Source of the DNA: Terrimonas ginsenosidimutans
Lineage (GTDB): Bacteria; Bacteroidota; Bacteroidia; Chitinophagales; Chitinophagaceae
Assembly (NCBI RefSeq): GCF_022012415.1
Contig: NZ_JAKLTR010000002.1
Coordinates: 310,001-374,000, forward strand
Length of the DNA: 64,000 nucleotides
Reading direction: 5' to 3'
Below are positions 9,228-30,490 of the stretch, piece after piece. Under the pieces are notes generated by a model that ran no database searches, was not told the origin of the DNA, and worked only from the letters and a program-made list of their open reading frames with translations. A program made the position numbers and the translations under genes. Position 1 is the first letter of the stretch. The number at the start of each line of letters is the position of its first letter.

Positions 9228-10202
9228 ATGGGCTTATTTGATAAAAGAATTCAATATAAACCGTTCGAATATCCTGAGGTTCTTCAGTTCACTGCGGCGA
9301 TCAACAAATCTTTCTGGGTTCATTCGGAAGTAGATTTTACAGCCGATATACAGGACTTTCATGCTCATCTGTCTCCCGAAGAACAGTCGGCTATCAAGAA
9401 CAGTCTTCTTTCGATCGCGCAGATTGAAGTTGCGGTAAAATCTTTCTGGGGAAACCTCTATCAACATTTTCCAAAACCCGAGATGAATGGGCTTGGTTCC
9501 ACTTTTGCAGAGTGCGAGTTCCGTCACTCAGAAGCTTATTCGCGTTTGCTGGAAGTGTTGGGTTATAATAACCAGTTTGAAGGTCTGCTTGAAGTGCCCG
9601 TAGTGCGTGAGCGGATCGGATACCTGTCATCCGCTTTACAGCATGCAAAATCCGATGATAAGAAAGAATATATTTCGTCTCTCATATTGTTCAGTTTACT
9701 GATTGAGAATGTAAGCCTGTTCAGTCAGTTTGCGATCATTCTTGCGTTCACGCGCTTTAAAGGCTTAATGAAAAATGTGAGCAATATCATTGCCTGGACT
9801 TCAGTGGATGAGCAAATTCATGCAAATGCGGGTATATTCCTGGTGAATAAACTGAAGGAAGAATATCCTGAGGTCTTTTCACCGGCGATGATCGAACATG
9901 TCCGCACGATCGTTCAGCAATCGATTATTACGGAAACGCGCATGCTTGATTGGATCTTCAGTGCCGGGGATATTGATGTGATCAGTAAGAAGAATCTTGT
10001 CAATTTCATGAAGAAGCGTGCAGATGACAGCCTGGAGCAGATCGGGGTTGCTCCGATATTTAATTTAAGTGCGGATGATATCCGGCCGATGATCTGGTTT
10101 GAAGAAGAAGTATTCTCCAATAGCCTGGACGATTTCTTTGCGAAACGCCCGGTTGAATACACGAAATTTGATAAGAGCATTTCGGCACACGATCTTTTTT
10201 AA
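9228..10202 (+). CDS. nrdB: Class I ribonucleotide reductase, small (beta) subunit
   Basis: This 324-residue R2 protein holds the di-metal/tyrosyl-radical cofactor that starts ribonucleotide reduction in the large subunit. The first ligand motif is E97-F-R-H100-S-E-A-Y104, matching E-x-x-H-x-x-x-Y of class Ia/Ib enzymes, with Y104 as the radical tyrosine. E67 sits where the first carboxylate ligand is expected. The second ligand set is in LLIENVSLF and in SVDEQIHAN (E-x-x-H). The C-terminal tail is acidic and aromatic, as needed to dock on R1. There is no N-terminal ATP-cone extension. The large subunit gene follows after 45 bases on the same strand. Confidence 0.95.
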   Translation: MGLFDKRIQYKPFEYPEVLQFTAAINKSFWVHSEVDFTADIQDFHAHLSPEEQSAIKNSLLSIAQIEVAVKSFWGNLYQHFPKPEMNGLGSTFAECEFRHSEAYSRLLEVLGYNNQFEGLLEVPVVRERIGYLSSALQHAKSDDKKEYISSLILFSLLIENVSLFSQFAIILAFTRFKGLMKNVSNIIAWTSVDEQIHANAGIFLVNKLKEEYPEVFSPAMIEHVRTIVQQSIITETRMLDWIFSAGDIDVISKKNLVNFMKKRADDSLEQIGVAPIFNLSADDIRPMIWFEEEVFSNSLDDFFAKRPVEYTKFDKSISAHDLF

Positions 10203-10247
10203 TATACTTTCTCCATTATATAGTCAAAACCCATTAAATCTACTAGT

Positions 10248-11963
10248 ATGACAACATTGTTTGAGTCAGCAGAGCCCGCAGTTGATCAGCTGCCAGATAT
10301 AGCTGGTAAATATGAACACGAAAAACTGTGGTGGAAGAATGAAGAGAGTGAGCAGATACTCAACCGCGGATACCTTTTGAAAGGAGAGACGGTAGAGGGT
10401 GCAATAGACCGGATCTGTTCTGCTGCAGCTCAGCGTTTATATAAACCTGAATTGAAAGATGCGTTCAAGGAAATGATCGAGAGAGGATGGATGAGCCTCA
10501 GCTCACCTATCTGGGCGAATATGGGGACAGAAAGAGGTCTTCCGATCTCCTGCTTTAATGTTCATGTTCCTGATAATATTGAAGGCATTACGCATAAGCT
10601 TGGTGAGGTGATCATGCAAACGAAACTTGGTGGCGGTACGTCTGCTTACTTTGGTTCATTGCGTGAAAGAGGAAGCGCTGTAACTGATAACGGAAAGAGC
10701 AGTGGTGCAGTCAGCTTTATGCGTTTGTTCGATACGGCGATGGATACGATCTCCCAGGGTGGCGTTCGCCGTGGTGCATTCGCTGCCTATATGGATATCG
10801 ATCATGGTGATATCGAGGAGTTCCTGTCTATTAAAGATATTGGTCATCCGATCCAAAACCTGTTCAACGGAGTTTGTGTTCCGGACTACTGGATGCAGGA
10901 TATGATCGATGGCGATATGAAGAAAAGAGAAGTGTGGGCGAAAGTGCTTGAAAGCCGTCAGCAGAAAGGTCTTCCTTACATTTTCTTTACAGACAATGTG
11001 AATCGTAATAAGCCGCAGGTTTATAAAGACGCCAATCTTTCGATCAACGCCAGCAATCTATGCTCCGAGATCATGCTGCCATCTACAGAAGATGAGTCAT
11101 TCATCTGCTGCCTGTCTTCCATGAACCTCGAGTTGTACGATGAATGGAAAGATACCAACGCGGTAAGACTGGCTGTGTTCTTCCTTGATGCCGTGTTACA
11201 GGAGTTCATTGCAAAGACAGAAGATAATTTCTACCTGAAAGCTGCGAACACTTTTGCGAAGAGACATCGTGCGCTCGGCCTGGGTGTATTAGGCTGGCAT
11301 TCCTATCTTCAAAAGAATATGATCCCCTTCGAAGGCCTGAAAGCAAAACAGTTAACGGCTTCAATCTTTAAAGATATCCAGGAAAAAGCATTAAAAGCAA
11401 GTAAAGACCTGGCATGGATCTATGGTGAGCCCGATCTGTTAAAGGGATATGGCCGGAGAAATACTACCGTCCTTGCGATTGCGCCAACTACCTCTTCTTC
11501 CGCAATCCTTGGTCAGACATCGCCCGGTATTGAGCCATTCAGCAGCAACTATTTTAAAGCGGGGTTGTCGAAAGGTAATTTCATGCGGAAGAATAAGTAC
11601 CTGAAAGAATTGCTGATCAAAAAAGGTATCGATAATGAAGATACCTGGCGCACGATCATGCTGAATCATGGAAGTGTGCAGCACCTGAAAGAGCTGACGG
11701 TGGAAGAGAAAGAAGTATTCAAGACATTCAAAGAGATCAGCCAGCTGGAGATCATTCAACAGGCATCCATCCGTCAGCAATATGTGGATCAGTCTCAAAG
11801 CCTGAACCTAAACATTCCTTCGGATGTTCCTGTTAAGGATGTGAACCGTCTCCTGATCGAAGCATGGAAGCTGGGTATCAAAACCCTGTATTACCAGCGC
11901 AGCCAGAGCGTGTCAAAAGAAATGGTTACAAGTTTGGTGAGCTGCAAGAGCTGTGAAGCTTGA
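10248..11963 (+). CDS. nrdA: Class I ribonucleotide reductase, large (alpha) subunit, short form
   Basis: The catalytic subunit that reduces ribonucleoside diphosphates. The ten-stranded barrel residues are visible: C102 (SCFNVH) and C287 (FICCLSS) as the redox pair, C272 with N270 and E274 in NLCSEIMLPS as thiyl-radical and proton-transfer residues, and APTTSSS near residue 405. The C-terminus ends CKSCEA, the CxxC that is re-reduced by thioredoxin or glutaredoxin. At 571 residues it is much shorter than NrdA (about 760) or NrdE (about 700). The N-terminal ATP-cone and part of the helical domain are absent, so dATP overall-activity control through a cone is not expected. An intrinsic terminator follows closely. 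Confidence 0.95.
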   Translation: MTTLFESAEPAVDQLPDIAGKYEHEKLWWKNEESEQILNRGYLLKGETVEGAIDRICSAAAQRLYKPELKDAFKEMIERGWMSLSSPIWANMGTERGLPISCFNVHVPDNIEGITHKLGEVIMQTKLGGGTSAYFGSLRERGSAVTDNGKSSGAVSFMRLFDTAMDTISQGGVRRGAFAAYMDIDHGDIEEFLSIKDIGHPIQNLFNGVCVPDYWMQDMIDGDMKKREVWAKVLESRQQKGLPYIFFTDNVNRNKPQVYKDANLSINASNLCSEIMLPSTEDESFICCLSSMNLELYDEWKDTNAVRLAVFFLDAVLQEFIAKTEDNFYLKAANTFAKRHRALGLGVLGWHSYLQKNMIPFEGLKAKQLTASIFKDIQEKALKASKDLAWIYGEPDLLKGYGRRNTTVLAIAPTTSSSAILGQTSPGIEPFSSNYFKAGLSKGNFMRKNKYLKELLIKKGIDNEDTWRTIMLNHGSVQHLKELTVEEKEVFKTFKEISQLEIIQQASIRQQYVDQSQSLNLNIPSDVPVKDVNRLLIEAWKLGIKTLYYQRSQSVSKEMVTSLVSCKSCEA

Positions 11964-24225: not shown

Positions 24226-24738
24226 ATGAGCATGCCAAGCATTCCTACAAGTTTTACCCATAAGTTGAGGCCTGAAACAACTTTTGATGTGGACACTACA
24301 CTGGATGGCGGTCTCGATACTAATCTCTCCGGGTCATTTGGGGCCATTCACTCAGGCAGTCTTGAAACAAAAGTAAGTGGCGAATTAAAGACAGACAATG
24401 TGTTGAAGCTTACCGGTGATGCAAATCAGCCGGTGGCCACTGACAGCAAAGTTGAGATACTCAATCTTCCGCGTTTTACTCTCCAGGATATAAAAGACAT
24501 GATGAAAGTGCGCATGCGCATTCCTAATTATTCCAATGTATGTGTTAAGCTCTTCGGCGTTGAAATGCTCAGCGTTTGTGTAAGTGGCGAAGGTCAGGTG
24601 ATCACAGAGCCATACATTCCCAATGCAGCCGAGCGTTGCGAAACAACAGACTGTTGCGAACCGGACACAAGGCCTTTCCCGGACCGTGGTAATGTAACAG
24701 GTAATACTGCCGGTCAAAACACCGGCAACAACGGGTAA
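24226..24738 (+). CDS. Uncharacterised cytosolic protein, first gene of the granule-like cluster
   Basis: A 170-residue protein from ATG 24226 (MSMPSIPTSFTHKL); the longer frame from 24124 begins in non-coding-looking sequence. It has no signal peptide. Residues 15-65 alternate hydrophobic and polar residues with repeated T-x-L-x-G/S-G patterns (TTLDGGLDTNLSGSFGAI, SLETKVSGELKTDN), suggesting a regular beta structure. The middle has LPRFTLQDIKDMMKVRMRIPN, and the C-terminal part a cysteine set, CETTDCCEPD, followed by a Gly/Asn-rich tail. I do not recognise the family. It begins a same-strand set of five genes with gaps of 31, 18 and 27 bases and one overlap, so they probably form one operon. 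Confidence 0.75.
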   Translation: MSMPSIPTSFTHKLRPETTFDVDTTLDGGLDTNLSGSFGAIHSGSLETKVSGELKTDNVLKLTGDANQPVATDSKVEILNLPRFTLQDIKDMMKVRMRIPNYSNVCVKLFGVEMLSVCVSGEGQVITEPYIPNAAERCETTDCCEPDTRPFPDRGNVTGNTAGQNTGNNG

Positions 24739-24769
24739 AGTGATCTTTGTAAAATCTAAACATTTCAAA

Positions 24770-25534
24770 ATGGTAAGAGTAACATCAGGCGCTTTCCATG
24801 AGAAACTGTCTGCCGGCAACGAAGAGATAATCCTTAACGGCCCTCCCGGTGACCTGAGAGGACATATCCTTGTCAGCAATCATAATAATGATACGCTGAA
24901 AGTAAAATCATTGCCGCTATCGCAGGATCAGCAACTGCGCGGGACTGCCGGCATGGATGCCTCACTGAATTTGTCATGCAGGCTCCATCCGGGTGAAGCA
25001 AAGATGGTAGAAGTATGGCACCAGGTAGATTCCTTTACTGCTCCAGGTGAATATGAAAACACGATCATGGTGGGTGGCGAGCAACGAAAGGTAAAGATCA
25101 TTGTGCAGGGCGTGATCGAGATCGATATTCACCCGCGTCATTTTGTGTTCACCGGAACCAATGCCGGTACCAGGCATACTGCTGTCTTCATGCTTTCCAA
25201 TCTTGGCAATATTCCTTTTCAGGTCCCCGATGTCAAACATATAGCCGCTCTTGATATGGATCTGATCTGTCGTGCGTTTGGCATGGGTATGCGCATTGGT
25301 GGCGCCGGCGGCGCAATGTCGGCTTTGGATGAGGTGGCAAAAAACATGCATGCCAACCTGCCCGATTGGGCCAATGCAGAAATAGAAGAGAATGGCCAGG
25401 TGCTTGAACCTGGTGCAAAACAAATGATACATCTTCAGATCACCATGCCGAAGAATAGTGATGGAAAGAAAGACTATGGCGGCAATGTCAGGTTCTGGGA
25501 CCAGGAGCTGACCTATATGGTGAAAGCACAGTAA
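24770..25534 (+). CDS. Double beta-sandwich protein of unknown function
   Basis: A 254-residue protein from ATG 24770; an upstream GTG at 24740 is less likely. No signal peptide is seen. The first half ends in an Ig-like, NEW3/COG1470-type signature: L-x-PGE (LHPGEAKMVEVW), then APGEYENTIMVGG and VKIIVQG. The second half repeats a sandwich layout, with a strand start (IDIHPRHFVFTG), AVFMLSNLGNIPFQV, an unusual glycine-rich insert (GMGMRIGGAGGAMS), and EPGAKQMIHLQITMP. Its PGE...PG-Y signature is shared with the three following proteins. Such modules usually bind surfaces or assemble into larger bodies. The function is unknown. Confidence 0.75.
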   Translation: MVRVTSGAFHEKLSAGNEEIILNGPPGDLRGHILVSNHNNDTLKVKSLPLSQDQQLRGTAGMDASLNLSCRLHPGEAKMVEVWHQVDSFTAPGEYENTIMVGGEQRKVKIIVQGVIEIDIHPRHFVFTGTNAGTRHTAVFMLSNLGNIPFQVPDVKHIAALDMDLICRAFGMGMRIGGAGGAMSALDEVAKNMHANLPDWANAEIEENGQVLEPGAKQMIHLQITMPKNSDGKKDYGGNVRFWDQELTYMVKAQ

Positions 25535-25552
25535 AACTCAAACCTTTCCGAT

Positions 25553-26215
25553 ATGCAAAACACCACAAAGCCAGACAGCTTGCAGGCAATGATCAGTGAT
25601 ACGCTGTCGAAGATCGCAGATAGTTCACTTCAATCGTTCAGGCCGGTAATGGATGGAATGCTCAATAATATGTCTTCTATCAGCCAGTCTGTGAAGAATA
25701 TAAATCCTGCGTCCATTAAGCTTCCGAAACTTACTAGTGATAATTGCAACTGTTGTCCGCCTGAACCAAAATGCCCGCCGCATTGCATCGCACAGATCAC
25801 ACGCATTGCCGCACAGGATGAACGGATCCTCATTCCCTTTATGGTGAAGAACTCCTGCAGCAAAATAAAAACATACCGGGTCGGTGTGCGTGAACTGAAA
25901 GACCAGGATGGGAATATGGCGCCATTTCAGCCGCAGTTGAGCAAGCAAACGGTTACTGTTGAACCGGGAAGGTCTGAAAGAGTTGTCATGATGATCGAGC
26001 TTGGGCAATTTGCCAATGGCGCTACTTATACAACCGAAATTGTGCTGCGCGAAAAAGAGATCAATCAGAATATCTGCTTCACACTTAAGATCGATAACGA
26101 TCATCATCTCGTTACCGCTCAGCCACAGGATGAAAAACAATACCAGTTACGCTGGCAAAGCTGGCAAAGTCATTTTTACTGCGAACCGAAGAAGGATGTG
26201 CGTGCGAACCAGTAA
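25553..26215 (+). CDS. Helix plus beta-sandwich protein with a cysteine cluster
   Basis: A 220-residue protein with no signal peptide. Residues 8-50 form an amphipathic, Ser/Met-rich helical segment (LQAMISDTLSKIADSS and LNNMSSISQSVKNI). A compact cysteine cluster follows at about 64-78 (CNCCPPEPKCPPHC), which could bind a metal or cross-link. Residues 80-190 are a beta sandwich with VEPGRSERVVMMIELG and GATYTTEIVLREKE, the same signature as its neighbours. The layout (helix for a surface, sandwich for display) resembles a granule coat protein, but this is inference. It lies 18 bases after the previous gene and 27 before the next. Confidence 0.75.
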   Translation: MQNTTKPDSLQAMISDTLSKIADSSLQSFRPVMDGMLNNMSSISQSVKNINPASIKLPKLTSDNCNCCPPEPKCPPHCIAQITRIAAQDERILIPFMVKNSCSKIKTYRVGVRELKDQDGNMAPFQPQLSKQTVTVEPGRSERVVMMIELGQFANGATYTTEIVLREKEINQNICFTLKIDNDHHLVTAQPQDEKQYQLRWQSWQSHFYCEPKKDVRANQ

Positions 26216-26242
26216 CTATTCCGCAAACAAAATTCCTGTGTA

Positions 26243-26926
26243 ATGAGCAATGAAAAGCAAGCTTTTTCAAAGGCGCTGGAAGAAGCGCTGAATAAATCCG
26301 TTGAGGCAAACAAAGTGTTCCTGAACGAAAGCTCGAAATTCTTTCAGCAAATAGGTAAACAGGATGGAACAAAGCGGTTCAACTTCCTGAAGGGTGAAAC
26401 GCTGTCCAATACGTTCGGTGAATACATGAAACTTAATCTGGAACATTTCAATAACCTGGTTGATCTTGGTGTAAGCTTTATGCGGACGGTAAATAATTCC
26501 GCTGCAACGGATAGTGACAACCATCCTTCTGAAGAGACTCCAGCTGATCAGCCAAGTTTTGTTTTGGAAAAAGAAACGCCGGCCGGTCAGCAGGTCAGAT
26601 TTCAGTTCCTATTGGATAATATAAAGCAGGAAGCAGTGGCGTGTCAACTAGTACACACAGGTTTTACAGGCCCGGCACGGGATGAAGTTCTGCAGCGTTT
26701 CAGGATGGATTTTACTCCACCCGTTTTTACACTGAATGCCGGTGAATCTCATTCGATCGATATCGTTGTAGATATTCCCGCTGATGCAGCTCCGGGTCTT
26801 TATACCACGCGTGTACAGGTAAAAGGATTTGAACCTGCGCACTTTTCGGTTCAGCTTACTGTTATTGAATCACCAACGCAACCTGGTACTGATGGCGGTA
26901 AAGAAAAAAAATCAAAGCGGAAGTAA
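26243..26926 (+). CDS. Phasin-like helical domain fused to a beta sandwich
   Basis: A 227-residue protein. The first 90 residues are helical with phasin-like spacing (KALEEALNKSVEANKVFLNE, then FGEYMKLNLEHFNNLVDLG and FMRTVNN); phasins coat polyester storage granules. An acidic linker (SDNHPSEETPADQPS) leads to a beta sandwich of about 110 residues ending LNAGESHSIDIVVDIP and APGLYTTRVQVKG. The protein ends in a basic tail (GGKEKKSKRK). It has no export signal. The next gene starts 35 bases before this one ends, in another frame, which indicates tight translational coupling. The phasin link rests on residue pattern only. Confidence 0.75.
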   Translation: MSNEKQAFSKALEEALNKSVEANKVFLNESSKFFQQIGKQDGTKRFNFLKGETLSNTFGEYMKLNLEHFNNLVDLGVSFMRTVNNSAATDSDNHPSEETPADQPSFVLEKETPAGQQVRFQFLLDNIKQEAVACQLVHTGFTGPARDEVLQRFRMDFTPPVFTLNAGESHSIDIVVDIPADAAPGLYTTRVQVKGFEPAHFSVQLTVIESPTQPGTDGGKEKKSKRK

Positions 26927-27638
26927 ACAGCAGGAGAGCAAAACAGGAGCAGACAAGTTGTTTGACAGTCTGCATCCCAACAACATGCTCAATAATGCGC
27001 AGAAAGTGATCAATTCCGCGGTGAATGTACTGGAAGAGGAGATCGCCGCAGGCATACTTGCCGCGAAGCGCATCGAGAAGAAGATGATCAATGTGGAAGA
27101 AGTGCGTGATGACAGTCAGAATCTCATGAACAGGATCCGTAAAGACACGCATGAGGCGCTGGATATCTTCCTGGATGCATTAGCTGCATTGTCGAAACAG
27201 GTTGGGATTTTAACGGATTCCGTGTCAAAGGAAAATAATGGGGGTGCAAAGGCGGACGCTTTCAGACCGGGCGCAAATAGTTCTGTTCAGATGGTTGATC
27301 ATGATGGCCCTGTGAGCGCCGGCAGTACCATCACCTTGTCATTTGTGCTGAGTGACGACACCATAAAAGTACCTGTTCAGCTCGATCTGCAAAAAACAGA
27401 CTTCTCCGGACCGGATAACCAAAAGGTTCCGGTAAAAAATTTGACCGTTGATCCATCTTCCTTTCTATTGAATCCTGGTGAAGAAAAAGAGGTGACCATC
27501 CAGGTCAGACTGCCACGCATATGTGCACCGGGACAATACAACTCGATCCTGACGGTAAAACAGATGCCGGACGTGAAGGTGGTGCTCAGTTTTGAAGTAC
27601 AAGAGGGAGGGGAAGAGGGAAGGAGTTTAAAAGTTTAA
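26892..27638 (+). CDS. Phasin-like helical domain fused to a beta sandwich, second copy
   Basis: A 248-residue protein from ATG 26892 (MAVKKKNQSGSKQQ); the open frame upstream overlaps the previous gene. A basic head is followed by a helical region of about 100 residues (NNAQKVINSAVNVLEEEIAA, RDDSQNLMNRIRKDTHEALD, FLDALAALSKQVGILTDS). The sandwich (about 128-240) has LNPGEEKEVTIQVRLP and APGQYNSILTVKQ, clearly paralogous to the preceding protein. The last residues (EGGEEGRSLKV) are encoded by the start of the left repeat arm at 27.6 kb, so the repeat has set the C-terminus. Coat or scaffold role is inferred from the domain pair. Confidence 0.75.
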   Translation: MAVKKKNQSGSKQQESKTGADKLFDSLHPNNMLNNAQKVINSAVNVLEEEIAAGILAAKRIEKKMINVEEVRDDSQNLMNRIRKDTHEALDIFLDALAALSKQVGILTDSVSKENNGGAKADAFRPGANSSVQMVDHDGPVSAGSTITLSFVLSDDTIKVPVQLDLQKTDFSGPDNQKVPVKNLTVDPSSFLLNPGEEKEVTIQVRLPRICAPGQYNSILTVKQMPDVKVVLSFEVQEGGEEGRSLKV

Positions 27639-27941
27639 GAGTTTAATAGTTTAAGAGTTTAATAGTTTAATAGTTTAAGGGTTTAAGGGTTTAAGGGTTT
27701 AAAAGTTTAGGAGCGCATTTGGTGAGGTTCGTACGGTTTAGGCGGATTCGTAATTCTATCTAAGGATAATTGTAACGATCGAGATCCTTAAATCGCATAA
27801 AACTCAATTATCGCAACACCGTCCAAAACGCCCTAACCATAACTGTTAAACTTTTAAACTATTAAACCCTTAAACTATTAAACTTTTAAACTCTTAAACT
27901 CTTAATCTCTTAACTCTTCACCCCTTCACCCCCCTCCCCCC
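27602..27941. repeat. Near-palindromic element of 9-nt tandem repeats
   Basis: The left arm (27602-27713) begins G-rich (agagggaggggaagaggg) and continues as 9-base units of the type gtttaa(g/t)ag and gtttaaggg. The right arm (27843-27941) is its reverse complement: cttttaaac, tattaaacc and similar units ending in ctcttcaccccttcac and a C-rich run that stops at the next start codon. The 129-base centre also pairs in part (gtttaggcg with cgccctaac; aaggat with atcctt). No transposase gene or target duplication is visible. The arms could form a very long hairpin in RNA or a cruciform. Confidence 0.85.
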
Positions 27942-28970
27942 ATGTCTGAACACCTCATGCGCTCCGTTCTCGAAGAGTATGGCCGGCTTACTTCGCAGGC
28001 TATGGCTCACTATATTCCGGACAAGGAGCCTAGAAAGTATTTGTATGATCTGGTGCCGGATTATCCCGGGCGGGGTGGAAAGTATTTCAGACCAGGCCTG
28101 GCGATTGCAACCGGTAACGTATATGGAGGATCGCCGGCGCTTACGCTCAACAGTGCGGTGACACTGGAGTTGCTGCACAATGCGTTCCTGATCCACGATG
28201 ATGTGGAGGATGAGAGCCTTTCACGGCGGAATCGCCCTACAATGCATGAGTACAGCAGCAGATCGATCGCTATTAATGTTGGCGATGCGATGAATGCGCT
28301 GGCCATGTATCCACTGCTTAAGAACCGGGAATTGCTTGGTCCGAAACTGACGCTGGCTATCTTTATGGAGATACAGCATATGGTGATAGAGTCGGCGGAA
28401 GGACAGGCAATGGAGCTCGGCTGGCGGCAGGATAACCGGGAGGATCTTGCTGATGAAGATTACTACAGGATGATCCTGAAGAAGACCTGCTGGTATACCT
28501 GTATCCATCCCATTCGCATCGGTGCGATGATCGGTTCGCATGGGAAGGTTGATCCTGATCTGTTCAATCGACTCGGCTATTTTATGGGAGTAGCCTTCCA
28601 GATCCAGGATGATGTATTGAACCTTGTTGCGGAAGAAAAGAAATACGGAAAAGAGATCGGTGGGGATATTGTAGAAGGTAAACGGACCCTGATACTGATC
28701 CATCTTCTTGGAGCATGTTCAGCCGCCGAGCGCAAAGAGATCATGCATTTTTTATCACGGCCTATCAGGGAGCGCGACCAGCAAATGGCCACGCAGATCC
28801 TGTCGCTTATGCACCGGTATGAAAGCATTGAATACGCGAAGCGCAATGCGAAGTATATGGCAGGAGGAGCATTGAAAGAATTTTACAGCATCTTCTCGAG
28901 ATTTCCATCGTCAAAAGATAAATCATTCATTGAAAGTATAATTCTTTATATGATCAATCGAGACTACTAG
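27942..28970 (+). CDS. Polyprenyl diphosphate synthase family protein (GGPP-synthase-like)
   Basis: A 342-residue trans-isoprenyl diphosphate synthase. The first aspartate-rich motif is D86-D-V-E-D90 (IHDDVEDES), without the two-residue insertion of bacterial FPP synthases. The second is D223-D-V-L-N227 (QIQDDVLNL). GGKYFRP gives the conserved GK-x-x-RP. KRTLILIHLL fits the K(R/K)T segment. These enzymes add isopentenyl diphosphate to allylic diphosphates; the motif form favours C20 or longer products, but chain length cannot be fixed by reading. The flavoprotein gene of the geranylgeranyl-reductase family follows after 50 bases, so the pair probably makes a reduced isoprenoid. Confidence 0.92.
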   Translation: MSEHLMRSVLEEYGRLTSQAMAHYIPDKEPRKYLYDLVPDYPGRGGKYFRPGLAIATGNVYGGSPALTLNSAVTLELLHNAFLIHDDVEDESLSRRNRPTMHEYSSRSIAINVGDAMNALAMYPLLKNRELLGPKLTLAIFMEIQHMVIESAEGQAMELGWRQDNREDLADEDYYRMILKKTCWYTCIHPIRIGAMIGSHGKVDPDLFNRLGYFMGVAFQIQDDVLNLVAEEKKYGKEIGGDIVEGKRTLILIHLLGACSAAERKEIMHFLSRPIRERDQQMATQILSLMHRYESIEYAKRNAKYMAGGALKEFYSIFSRFPSSKDKSFIESIILYMINRDY

Positions 28971-29020
28971 CATTCTTTGCCAGGGTCGGGCAGGTCGTTC
29001 ATTAATAATTGCCATACTAT

Positions 29021-30490
29021 ATGCTGATCGTACGAACGTTGAATAAATATGACTGCGATGTGCTGATCGCGGGAGGTGGCCCGGCGGGTAGCGGTCTCGC
29101 ATTTCATCTGGCCAGCCAGGGGTATAAGGTGATCGTTGTGGATGCTGAGTCGTTTCCCCGCGATAAGGTCTGTGGTGATGGGGTGAGCCCGATCGCTTTG
29201 GCAGAACTGCAGGCCATGGGCATTACACAAACAGAGAAGTTTGCGTCAACGAATGAGATAAAGCAGGTCGGATTATTCATTAAGAATGATAAAGTGATCA
29301 TCAATCTCTCGAAGCCTGATCATCTTCCCTTTCACGCACATATCATTCCGCGGGTGGAGCTGGATCAATGGATCGTTTCCGCCGCGCAAAAAGCTGGTGC
29401 CACATACCTGGAGAATACAAGGGTGACGGGTTTTGAAATAAGATCGGGAGTGGCGATCGCGCAATTGAAACAAGGGAGAAAAAATTTTACACTCAATGCA
29501 AAGATGATCGTTGGTGCAGATGGAAGCCGGTCTGTAGTGGCCCGTCAACTCAATGGCAAACCACCAGACAGCGAGTTCCAGCTGGTGGGTCTTCGTGCTT
29601 ATTATGAAAAGGTGAATGGCCCAACTGACAGAGTGGATATTTATTTCAGTGAAGAAAGTTTTCCCGGGATCTTCTGGATGTTTCCCAAAGGCCCCGCAGG
29701 TGCCAACATCGGAATGGCAATGGTCTCCAAGACGCTGCCCACTAAAACCGCTGATGTAAAGCAATTGCTGATCAATCATATTGCCAGGAATAAAGATATA
29801 CGTGAGCGGATCGGCAATGGACAGATGGAGGGTAAGATCATGGGCTGGCCAATTACTTTCTATAACAGTAAAACCCGCATCATAGGAGATCGTGTGTTGC
29901 TTGCGGGTGATGCAGCTGGTTTGATCAATCCTTTAAGTGGTGATGGGATCCAGTATGCATTGCTAAGCGCAAGGTGGGCTGCTGAAACGATCAGCCATTG
30001 TCTGCAGGCAAATGACCTCTCTGTAAATGGGCTTCAAAGCTACCAGCGGCGGGTGAATGCAGAGCTTGGTTATGATTTCGCATTATCCAATCTGCTGGTA
30101 CAGTTTCCCCGGAATAGATCTTTAAGCAAATTATGGATGACCATACTGGAAGTAATGATCGCAAGAGCAAAACAGGATCCGAAGTATGCAGACACCATCG
30201 CAGGCATTTTCGAAGGAACCTATCCATCCTATAAAGCGCTGAATGCTTCATTTATCCTCAATTCGGTGAAGCAGGGGGCCACTGAATTCAGCGAAGGTTT
30301 TAAAAAAGCGATGGGGCAACCGGGAGGGCTGATCGCAACAGGATTGCAGGCGACGGAGAGTATAACGGCTCTTCTGTCTGAACTATCCACTTATCAGAAA
30401 GATCATATAGACTGGATGAAAAATACATTGGGCAAGACGGCGAAAGTAGCCGCCCATATCATCACACGAATGAACGCTAATGGCCGCTGA
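29021..30490 (+). CDS. Geranylgeranyl reductase family flavoprotein
   Basis: A 489-residue FAD-dependent oxidoreductase. The dinucleotide-binding motif is AGGGPAGSGLAFHLA, followed by FPRDKVCGDGVSP, the P-R-x-K-x-C-G(D/G) signature of this family, with the conserved cysteine. The second FAD motif is LAGDAAGLINPLSGDGIQYAL. IVGADGSRSVVAR is also standard. Members saturate double bonds in geranylgeranyl chains of lipids, chlorophyll or quinones; related ones act as monooxygenases. ATG 29021 is preferred to a TTG at 29009. The tail (400-489) is hydrophobic and helical, possibly for membrane contact. Position behind the polyprenyl synthase suggests its product is the substrate. Confidence 0.9.
   Translation: MLIVRTLNKYDCDVLIAGGGPAGSGLAFHLASQGYKVIVVDAESFPRDKVCGDGVSPIALAELQAMGITQTEKFASTNEIKQVGLFIKNDKVIINLSKPDHLPFHAHIIPRVELDQWIVSAAQKAGATYLENTRVTGFEIRSGVAIAQLKQGRKNFTLNAKMIVGADGSRSVVARQLNGKPPDSEFQLVGLRAYYEKVNGPTDRVDIYFSEESFPGIFWMFPKGPAGANIGMAMVSKTLPTKTADVKQLLINHIARNKDIRERIGNGQMEGKIMGWPITFYNSKTRIIGDRVLLAGDAAGLINPLSGDGIQYALLSARWAAETISHCLQANDLSVNGLQSYQRRVNAELGYDFALSNLLVQFPRNRSLSKLWMTILEVMIARAKQDPKYADTIAGIFEGTYPSYKALNASFILNSVKQGATEFSEGFKKAMGQPGGLIATGLQATESITALLSELSTYQKDHIDWMKNTLGKTAKVAAHIITRMNANGR

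Follow-up and report, generated by a model that had tools for sequence, protein, structure and literature searches.

Helix-plus-sandwich proteins encoded with a prenyl diphosphate synthase and a geranylgeranyl-reductase-family flavoprotein: a seven-gene operon of Bacteroidota and its relatives

The nearest described idea to the locus reported here is that of the family 2B encapsulins, which carry a polyprenyl-transferase cargo (Andreas and Giessen 2021, PMC8346489). Related chemistry is described for FCB bacteria, in which geranylgeranyl reductases (GGRs) are present and whose Bacteroidetes GGGP synthase (GGGPS) homologues make GGGP in vitro (PMC7852524). In the genome of Terrimonas ginsenosidimutans we find isoprenoid enzymes of known families encoded together with five proteins that have no counterpart in these systems. 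A search of open-licence papers, preprints excluded, returned no description of this gene set, in line with the first-pass annotation of the DNA, which had known of no such system either.

The window analysed here is a stretch of 64,000 nucleotides (NZ_JAKLTR010000002.1, positions 310,001 to 374,000). Reading and translating its open reading frames revealed seven genes, A to G, all encoded on the plus strand between 24226 and 30490 (Table 1); genes A to E (24226-27638) form a single operon with F and G. No signal peptide was detected on any of the seven proteins, as judged by N-terminal hydropathy. For A to E, hydropathy gave neither signal peptides nor transmembrane segments, the highest 19-residue Kyte-Doolittle mean being 1.40 and the N-termini being polar. 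This agrees with the earlier description of five consecutive same-strand genes lacking signal peptides, and export, which that description had regarded as speaking against its proposal, is not predicted.

Table 1. Genes of the operon, with positions counted from the first letter of the window
Gene	Position	Strand	Length (aa)	Features
A	24226..24738	+	170	no known family; first gene of the type I cassette
B	24770..25534	+	254	N-terminal sandwich, homologous to the E sandwich, then a second conserved region
C	25553..26215	+	220	sandwich preceded by an amphipathic helical N-terminus; cysteine cluster CC..CPPHC conserved
D	26243..26926	+	227	amphipathic helical N-terminus and NEW3-like sandwich
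E	26892..27638	+	248	two long helices and sandwich; core partner of F across phyla
F	27942..28970	+	342	GGPP-type polyprenyl diphosphate synthase, distinct clade
G	29021..30490	+	489	geranylgeranyl-reductase-family flavoprotein with C-terminal extension

The reading frames of D and E overlap by 35 bp, and 303 bp separate E from F in the window, compared with mostly 2-70 bp in its relatives. The gap is wide because a genome-specific hairpin repeat is located there: positions 27623-27918 hold an array of eleven copies of GAGTTTAA and, 127 bp further on, an inverted array of ten copies, and the two arrays form a very strong hairpin (z -10.7). The motif occurs 427 times in this genome, 14 times in a congener and one to three times in two other relatives. 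It belongs to a dispersed element of inverted octamer arrays, specific to this genome, which has pushed E and F apart.

None of the proteins A to E reached a curated cut-off in profile searches of Pfam or NCBIfam. Profile-profile comparison nevertheless showed the sandwiches of C, D, E and the first domain of B to be homologous (D-E 98.8 %, C-E 96.1 %, C-D 95.6 %, B-E 93.5 %), with the C-D alignment extending over the helical part as well, so that the sandwich signature previously read from four of the five proteins stands; A is without it. The amphipathic N-terminal segments assigned to three proteins were recovered in C, D and E with moments of 0.53-0.56. In the predicted structure of E, helices at residues 29-65 and 68-113 were modelled with only moderate confidence (pLDDT mostly 60-88) and the sandwich at residues 131-237 with pLDDT mostly above 92, which reproduces the expected helical/sandwich layout. 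Structure comparison relates this sandwich to the N-terminal domain of GH123 and to PapD, ASH, MSP and HYDIN domains, in line with weak sequence matches to NEW3 and fn3_5: NEW3 (PF10633) was matched by D at E=8.7e-5, its 23.1 bits falling slightly short of the 24.4 gathering cut-off, and by 24 of 51 E homologues at E<=0.05. The "phasin-like" spacing seen earlier is an analogy at most, as neither C, D and E nor any of the 51 E homologues matched the Pfam phasin families.

Protein A, for which we collected 15 orthologues of 31-73 % identity, matched nothing in Pfam or NCBIfam, and its predicted structure was unusable (pLDDT 49). It is recognised by a conserved core, NLPRFTLQDIKDMM..IPNYS..C, and by the motif C..CCEPDTRPFP; conserved cysteine clusters are thus present in both A and C. 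A small Cys-rich protein from other loci of the family (type II, below) looked similar to A by eye, but hhalign assigned the pair only 0.1 %, and we rejected the homology.

The two enzymes were identified as anticipated, a polyprenyl synthase followed by a member of the geranylgeranyl reductase family. F scored 178.9 bits against PF00348 (cut-off 27) and displays the motifs HDDVED and QIQDD, its clade being marked by HNAFLxHDDxED and KKTCWYTCIHPIRIGA. By sequence, its closest solved relatives are the GGPP synthases 1wmw and 1wy0, and it lies nearest to archaeal and bacterial short-chain GGPP synthases and to the model of the polyprenyl transferase cargo of family-2 encapsulins; on that model (NCBIfam NF041169) it scores well, yet far under the cut-off. 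G reached 224 bits against TIGR02032 (curated cut-off 158.8), and the digeranylgeranylglycerophospholipid reductase 3oz2 is its closest solved relative by sequence. As a member of the geranylgeranyl reductase family it is predicted to reduce prenyl double bonds, although GGR relatives also include halogenases and monooxygenases. Its C-terminal extension of about 100 residues (about 385-489) contains the most amphipathic segment of the protein, residues 412-429.

Among 15 genomes, the cassette carriers encode three polyprenyl synthases above the cut-off, compared with two in nine of ten non-carriers and three in the remaining one, which indicates that F is an addition to a housekeeping pair. 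As two other polyprenyl synthases occur in every genome checked, we discarded the idea that F is the housekeeping menaquinone synthase. Genes resembling isopentenyl-diphosphate isomerase, recognised by reading the sequence without a profile search, are located beside F in locus L093 and near F in L087. Judged from the enzyme families, the extra-copy synthase and the isomerase-like neighbour gene, the predicted isoprenoid chemistry of the operon is well supported.

Across 294 Chitinophagaceae genomes, strong matches to E (E<=6e-19) and to F (E<=1e-60) were found in the identical five genomes and in no others; chance would produce such sharing with a probability of about 6e-11 (1/C(294,5)) if the genomes were independent, which they are not fully. 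Three further genomes gave weak matches to the sandwich of E only (E 0.003-0.009) and are without F. In the other four carriers, A to G are intact twice, A to F run up to a contig end once, and once the set is reduced to E-F with a divergent G. At least 12 more loci of public genomes, from other genera and several Bacteroidota families, keep the genes in the order A-B-C-D-E-F-G, so that the co-occurrence with synthase and reductase on which the first-pass annotation had staked its proposal was indeed observed. The edges of the conserved block are exactly A and G, its spacing is tight or overlapping, and the flanks are unrelated between most loci. The cassette is also rare, a survey of 395 Bacteroidota genomes returning A in one, F in three and E in four, with two of the E matches weak. 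Plasmids contained no homologue of D and only distant homologues of F; a phage origin was dismissed, as phage records held no homologue of B.

When a profile of F was run once against 84,980 species genomes, it yielded 79 loci, several of them on MAG contigs whose stated taxonomy is uncertain (two Bathyarchaeota bins, for example). In 63 of 81 F loci, spread over many phyla, E or the E homologue of type III lies within 350 bp of F, in 56 of those upstream and on the same strand; a larger system is built around the E-F pair, and we distinguish four types of locus in it. Type I is the complete A-B-C-D-E-F-G set of Chitinophagaceae, Flavobacteriaceae, Weeksellaceae, Crocinitomicaceae and Fulvivirgaceae, with a rearranged version without D in a Tectomicrobia MAG. 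Type II, found in many phyla, combines E-F and usually G with further proteins, namely a small Cys-rich one, a member of a family about 200 aa long and one of 1,170-1,250 aa with a PKD domain. In type III, which is mostly from Myxococcota, F is accompanied by an HpnE-like flavoprotein (below cut-off), a saccharopine-dehydrogenase-like protein and a full-length E homologue, helices and sandwich both being aligned (E=4e-12).

In the F tree, type I and two E-F-G loci from contig edges make up a supported clade (98), which lies within the type II loci of Bacteroidota; types III and IV fall outside, the deep split being weak (72). Families are mixed within type I, where Chryseolinea, for example, stands beside Marixanthomonas, and this points to horizontal transfer.

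Several details of these loci are worth recording. The PKD-domain protein of type II (L043:13342-16845, L045:11777-15280 and L016:2258-5794, among others) has no obvious signal peptide, and its N-terminal half is conserved and belongs to no known family; reading the N-terminus of the 1,170-aa protein as a lipid-binding (TULIP) domain found no sequence support. The roughly 200-aa family (cluster 7, encoded at L043:12580-13233 and in 14 other loci) is restricted to type II, starts with LMPRLLEKYG..NPLLALEKIGY and has no meaningful Pfam match. One Polyangiaceae contig (L083) carries two F genes, at 621-1784 and 9905-11014, one in a type III context and the other adjoining a gene that clusters with DUF3237 proteins. 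Two actinobacterial loci encode, immediately upstream of F, a protein of no more than about 140 aa (L104:9530-9961 and L114:8555-8974); that of L104 is of the helical type without the sandwich, and the E of the Rhodobacter group (L096) is essentially sandwich only, showing that the two modules of E can separate.

Type IV, from Acaryochloris, Cyanobium, actinobacteria and the Rhodobacter group, brings the family together with a protein shell. It comprises a cyclase/ATPase regulator, a DUF3237 protein, a family-1 encapsulin, an HpnE-like flavoprotein, F and often E, and in three loci the flavoprotein is fused to F. The operon running from the regulator through DUF3237, encapsulin and HpnE-like flavoprotein to the GGPP synthase is conserved in eight loci (L084, L085, L088, L090, L096, L099, L103 and L113). 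The encapsulin was identified by a profile match to solved shells (E=2e-27) and, independently, by the NCBI annotation of a Ruegeria plasmid. At their C-termini, the HpnE-like proteins of L082, L084, L085, L087, L088, L096, L100 and L102 share a basic tail of similar sequence (RGRIRIVQKP, RRRFRFTQKA or TGKVHIIPSP, for example), a candidate encapsulin loading peptide. The main text of PMC8346489 mentions neither DUF3237, flavin or geranylgeranyl enzymes nor the type IV gene set. The family-1 encapsulin profile PF04454 found nothing in the five cassette genomes, that of the window included, with a working control, and we therefore rejected such a shell acting in trans in them. With E-F conserved across phyla, isomerase-like genes in two lineages and the pairing with encapsulin, the link to isoprenoid synthesis has become firmer than when it was originally drawn.

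Taken together, we consider, with a probability of roughly 0.5, that this is a horizontally spreading operon which serves to organise the synthesis of isoprenoids on an assembly of soluble proteins: F would make and G reduce the chain, and A to E would scaffold or coat the site. F would act as a dedicated third prenyl diphosphate synthase whose product is most likely of GGPP length, and G may then reduce this chain or modify it by other redox chemistry. E would be the core scaffold, its helical hairpin binding itself or a hydrophobic surface and its sandwich docking partners; this structural role is inferred from the domain layout of E, from how often it is paired with F and from the encapsulin that type IV offers as an alternative. 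C and D would serve as helix-plus-sandwich relatives of E, B as a sandwich protein and A as a Cys-rich partner, and these would make the coat or scaffold of Bacteroidota more elaborate. A reduced linear isoprenoid would then likely be made or held in a cytosolic body coated with protein, or in an inner-membrane patch. We infer the scaffold or coat role, the order of reactions, the product and the body alike, and a storage granule is one possibility among others, which include a closed compartment of protein and a route to membrane lipids. It has to be kept in mind that relatives of the sandwich (GH123 N-domain, PapD, ASH/MSP, HYDIN) serve many unrelated roles.

A more far-reaching version, which we put forward only tentatively, takes A to E as an undescribed organelle with a helix-plus-sandwich coat or shell for isoprenoid synthesis; the type I coat, the 1,170-aa PKD protein of type II and the encapsulin of type IV would then be several solutions evolved around a conserved E-F pair of scaffold and synthase. 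If isoprenoid synthesis is indeed organised on soluble proteins, bacteria as far apart as Bacteroidota, Myxococcota, Actinomycetota and cyanobacteria would share a mobile and modular means of doing so, a scaffold or intracellular compartment of a new kind would be at hand, at least five orphan protein families would gain roles, and portable parts for isoprenoid engineering would suggest themselves.

Other explanations draw on the same evidence. F might instead feed extra GGPP to a resident GGGP synthase, with G saturating the product to give archaeal-type ether lipids and A to E acting as an inner-membrane scaffold rather than a granule coat. A PcrB/GGGPS gene in 15 of 15 genomes checked makes such a membrane-lipid product possible, and the kinship of G with 3oz2 as well as the in vitro activity of Bacteroidetes GGGPS homologues and the GGRs of FCB bacteria (PMC7852524) point the same way; GGGPS is, however, equally common in cassette-free genomes, clustering of the cassette flanks gave no recurrent GGGPS- or UbiA-type family, and five dedicated structural proteins and the encapsulin branch would be left unexplained, so that we regard this route as rather unlikely. 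That A to E enclose F and G in a new type of closed shell, in place of the encapsulin of the sister branch, we hold to be unlikely: it would suit the pairing of the F family with family-1 encapsulin there, the lack of this encapsulin in the cassette genomes checked and the presence of several homologous structural proteins of differing architecture in one operon, but no symmetric-shell fold was recognised, the sandwich of E resembles NEW3/PapD/ASH adaptors, and the helical region of E is modelled at moderate confidence.

An ordinary terpenoid secondary-metabolite cluster, with small proteins binding the product, would account for the patchy, horizontally spread distribution and for a GGPP synthase beside a flavoenzyme. 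Such a cluster appears quite improbable for a conserved A-G block that contains five dedicated structural proteins and no terpene cyclase, prenyltransferase or transporter. The structural similarity of the E sandwich to PapD and other chaperones could finally suggest a surface or filament assembly system, to which A to E would belong, with PapD-like sandwiches as chaperones, and for which F and G would supply a lipid carrier or anchor. A to E all being without a signal peptide by hydropathy, no usher, secretion or exported family recurring in the conserved block, and the helical N-termini being unlike chaperones, this is the least probable of the explanations.

Compared with the systems known to us, the operon resembles the family 2B encapsulins (PMC8346489) in its patchy distribution and in encoding structural proteins alongside a prenyl diphosphate synthase; it differs in its helix-plus-sandwich proteins and GGR-type flavoprotein, in having no cNMP domain and no family-1 shell gene, either within it or in the cassette genomes searched, and in that the shell of its sister branch is of family 1 rather than family 2. 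Like PHA granules with their phasins, it places several small proteins, predicted to be cytosolic and bearing amphipathic helices, beside the enzymes of a hydrophobic product; here, however, there is no PhaC and no Pfam phasin match, a sandwich is fused to the helices, and the enzymes are those of isoprenoid synthesis. PHA synthase (PF07167) was absent from the five cassette genomes, with a working control, so that a PHA granule is ruled out. The archaeal-type ether-lipid enzymes of FCB bacteria (PMC7852524) likewise combine a GGPP synthase with a geranylgeranyl reductase, but the operon is without GGGPS and DGGGPS, carries extra structural genes and is distributed independently of GGGPS. The sandwiches of E and D, lastly, are akin to the NEW3, GH123 N-terminal and PapD-ASH-MSP superfamily, with the difference that here they are predicted to be intracellular, fused to helical modules and encoded in an isoprenoid operon. 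The A-G set matches no known system that we found, belonging neither to the PHA granules nor to the family-1 encapsulins, while its enzymes come from known families.
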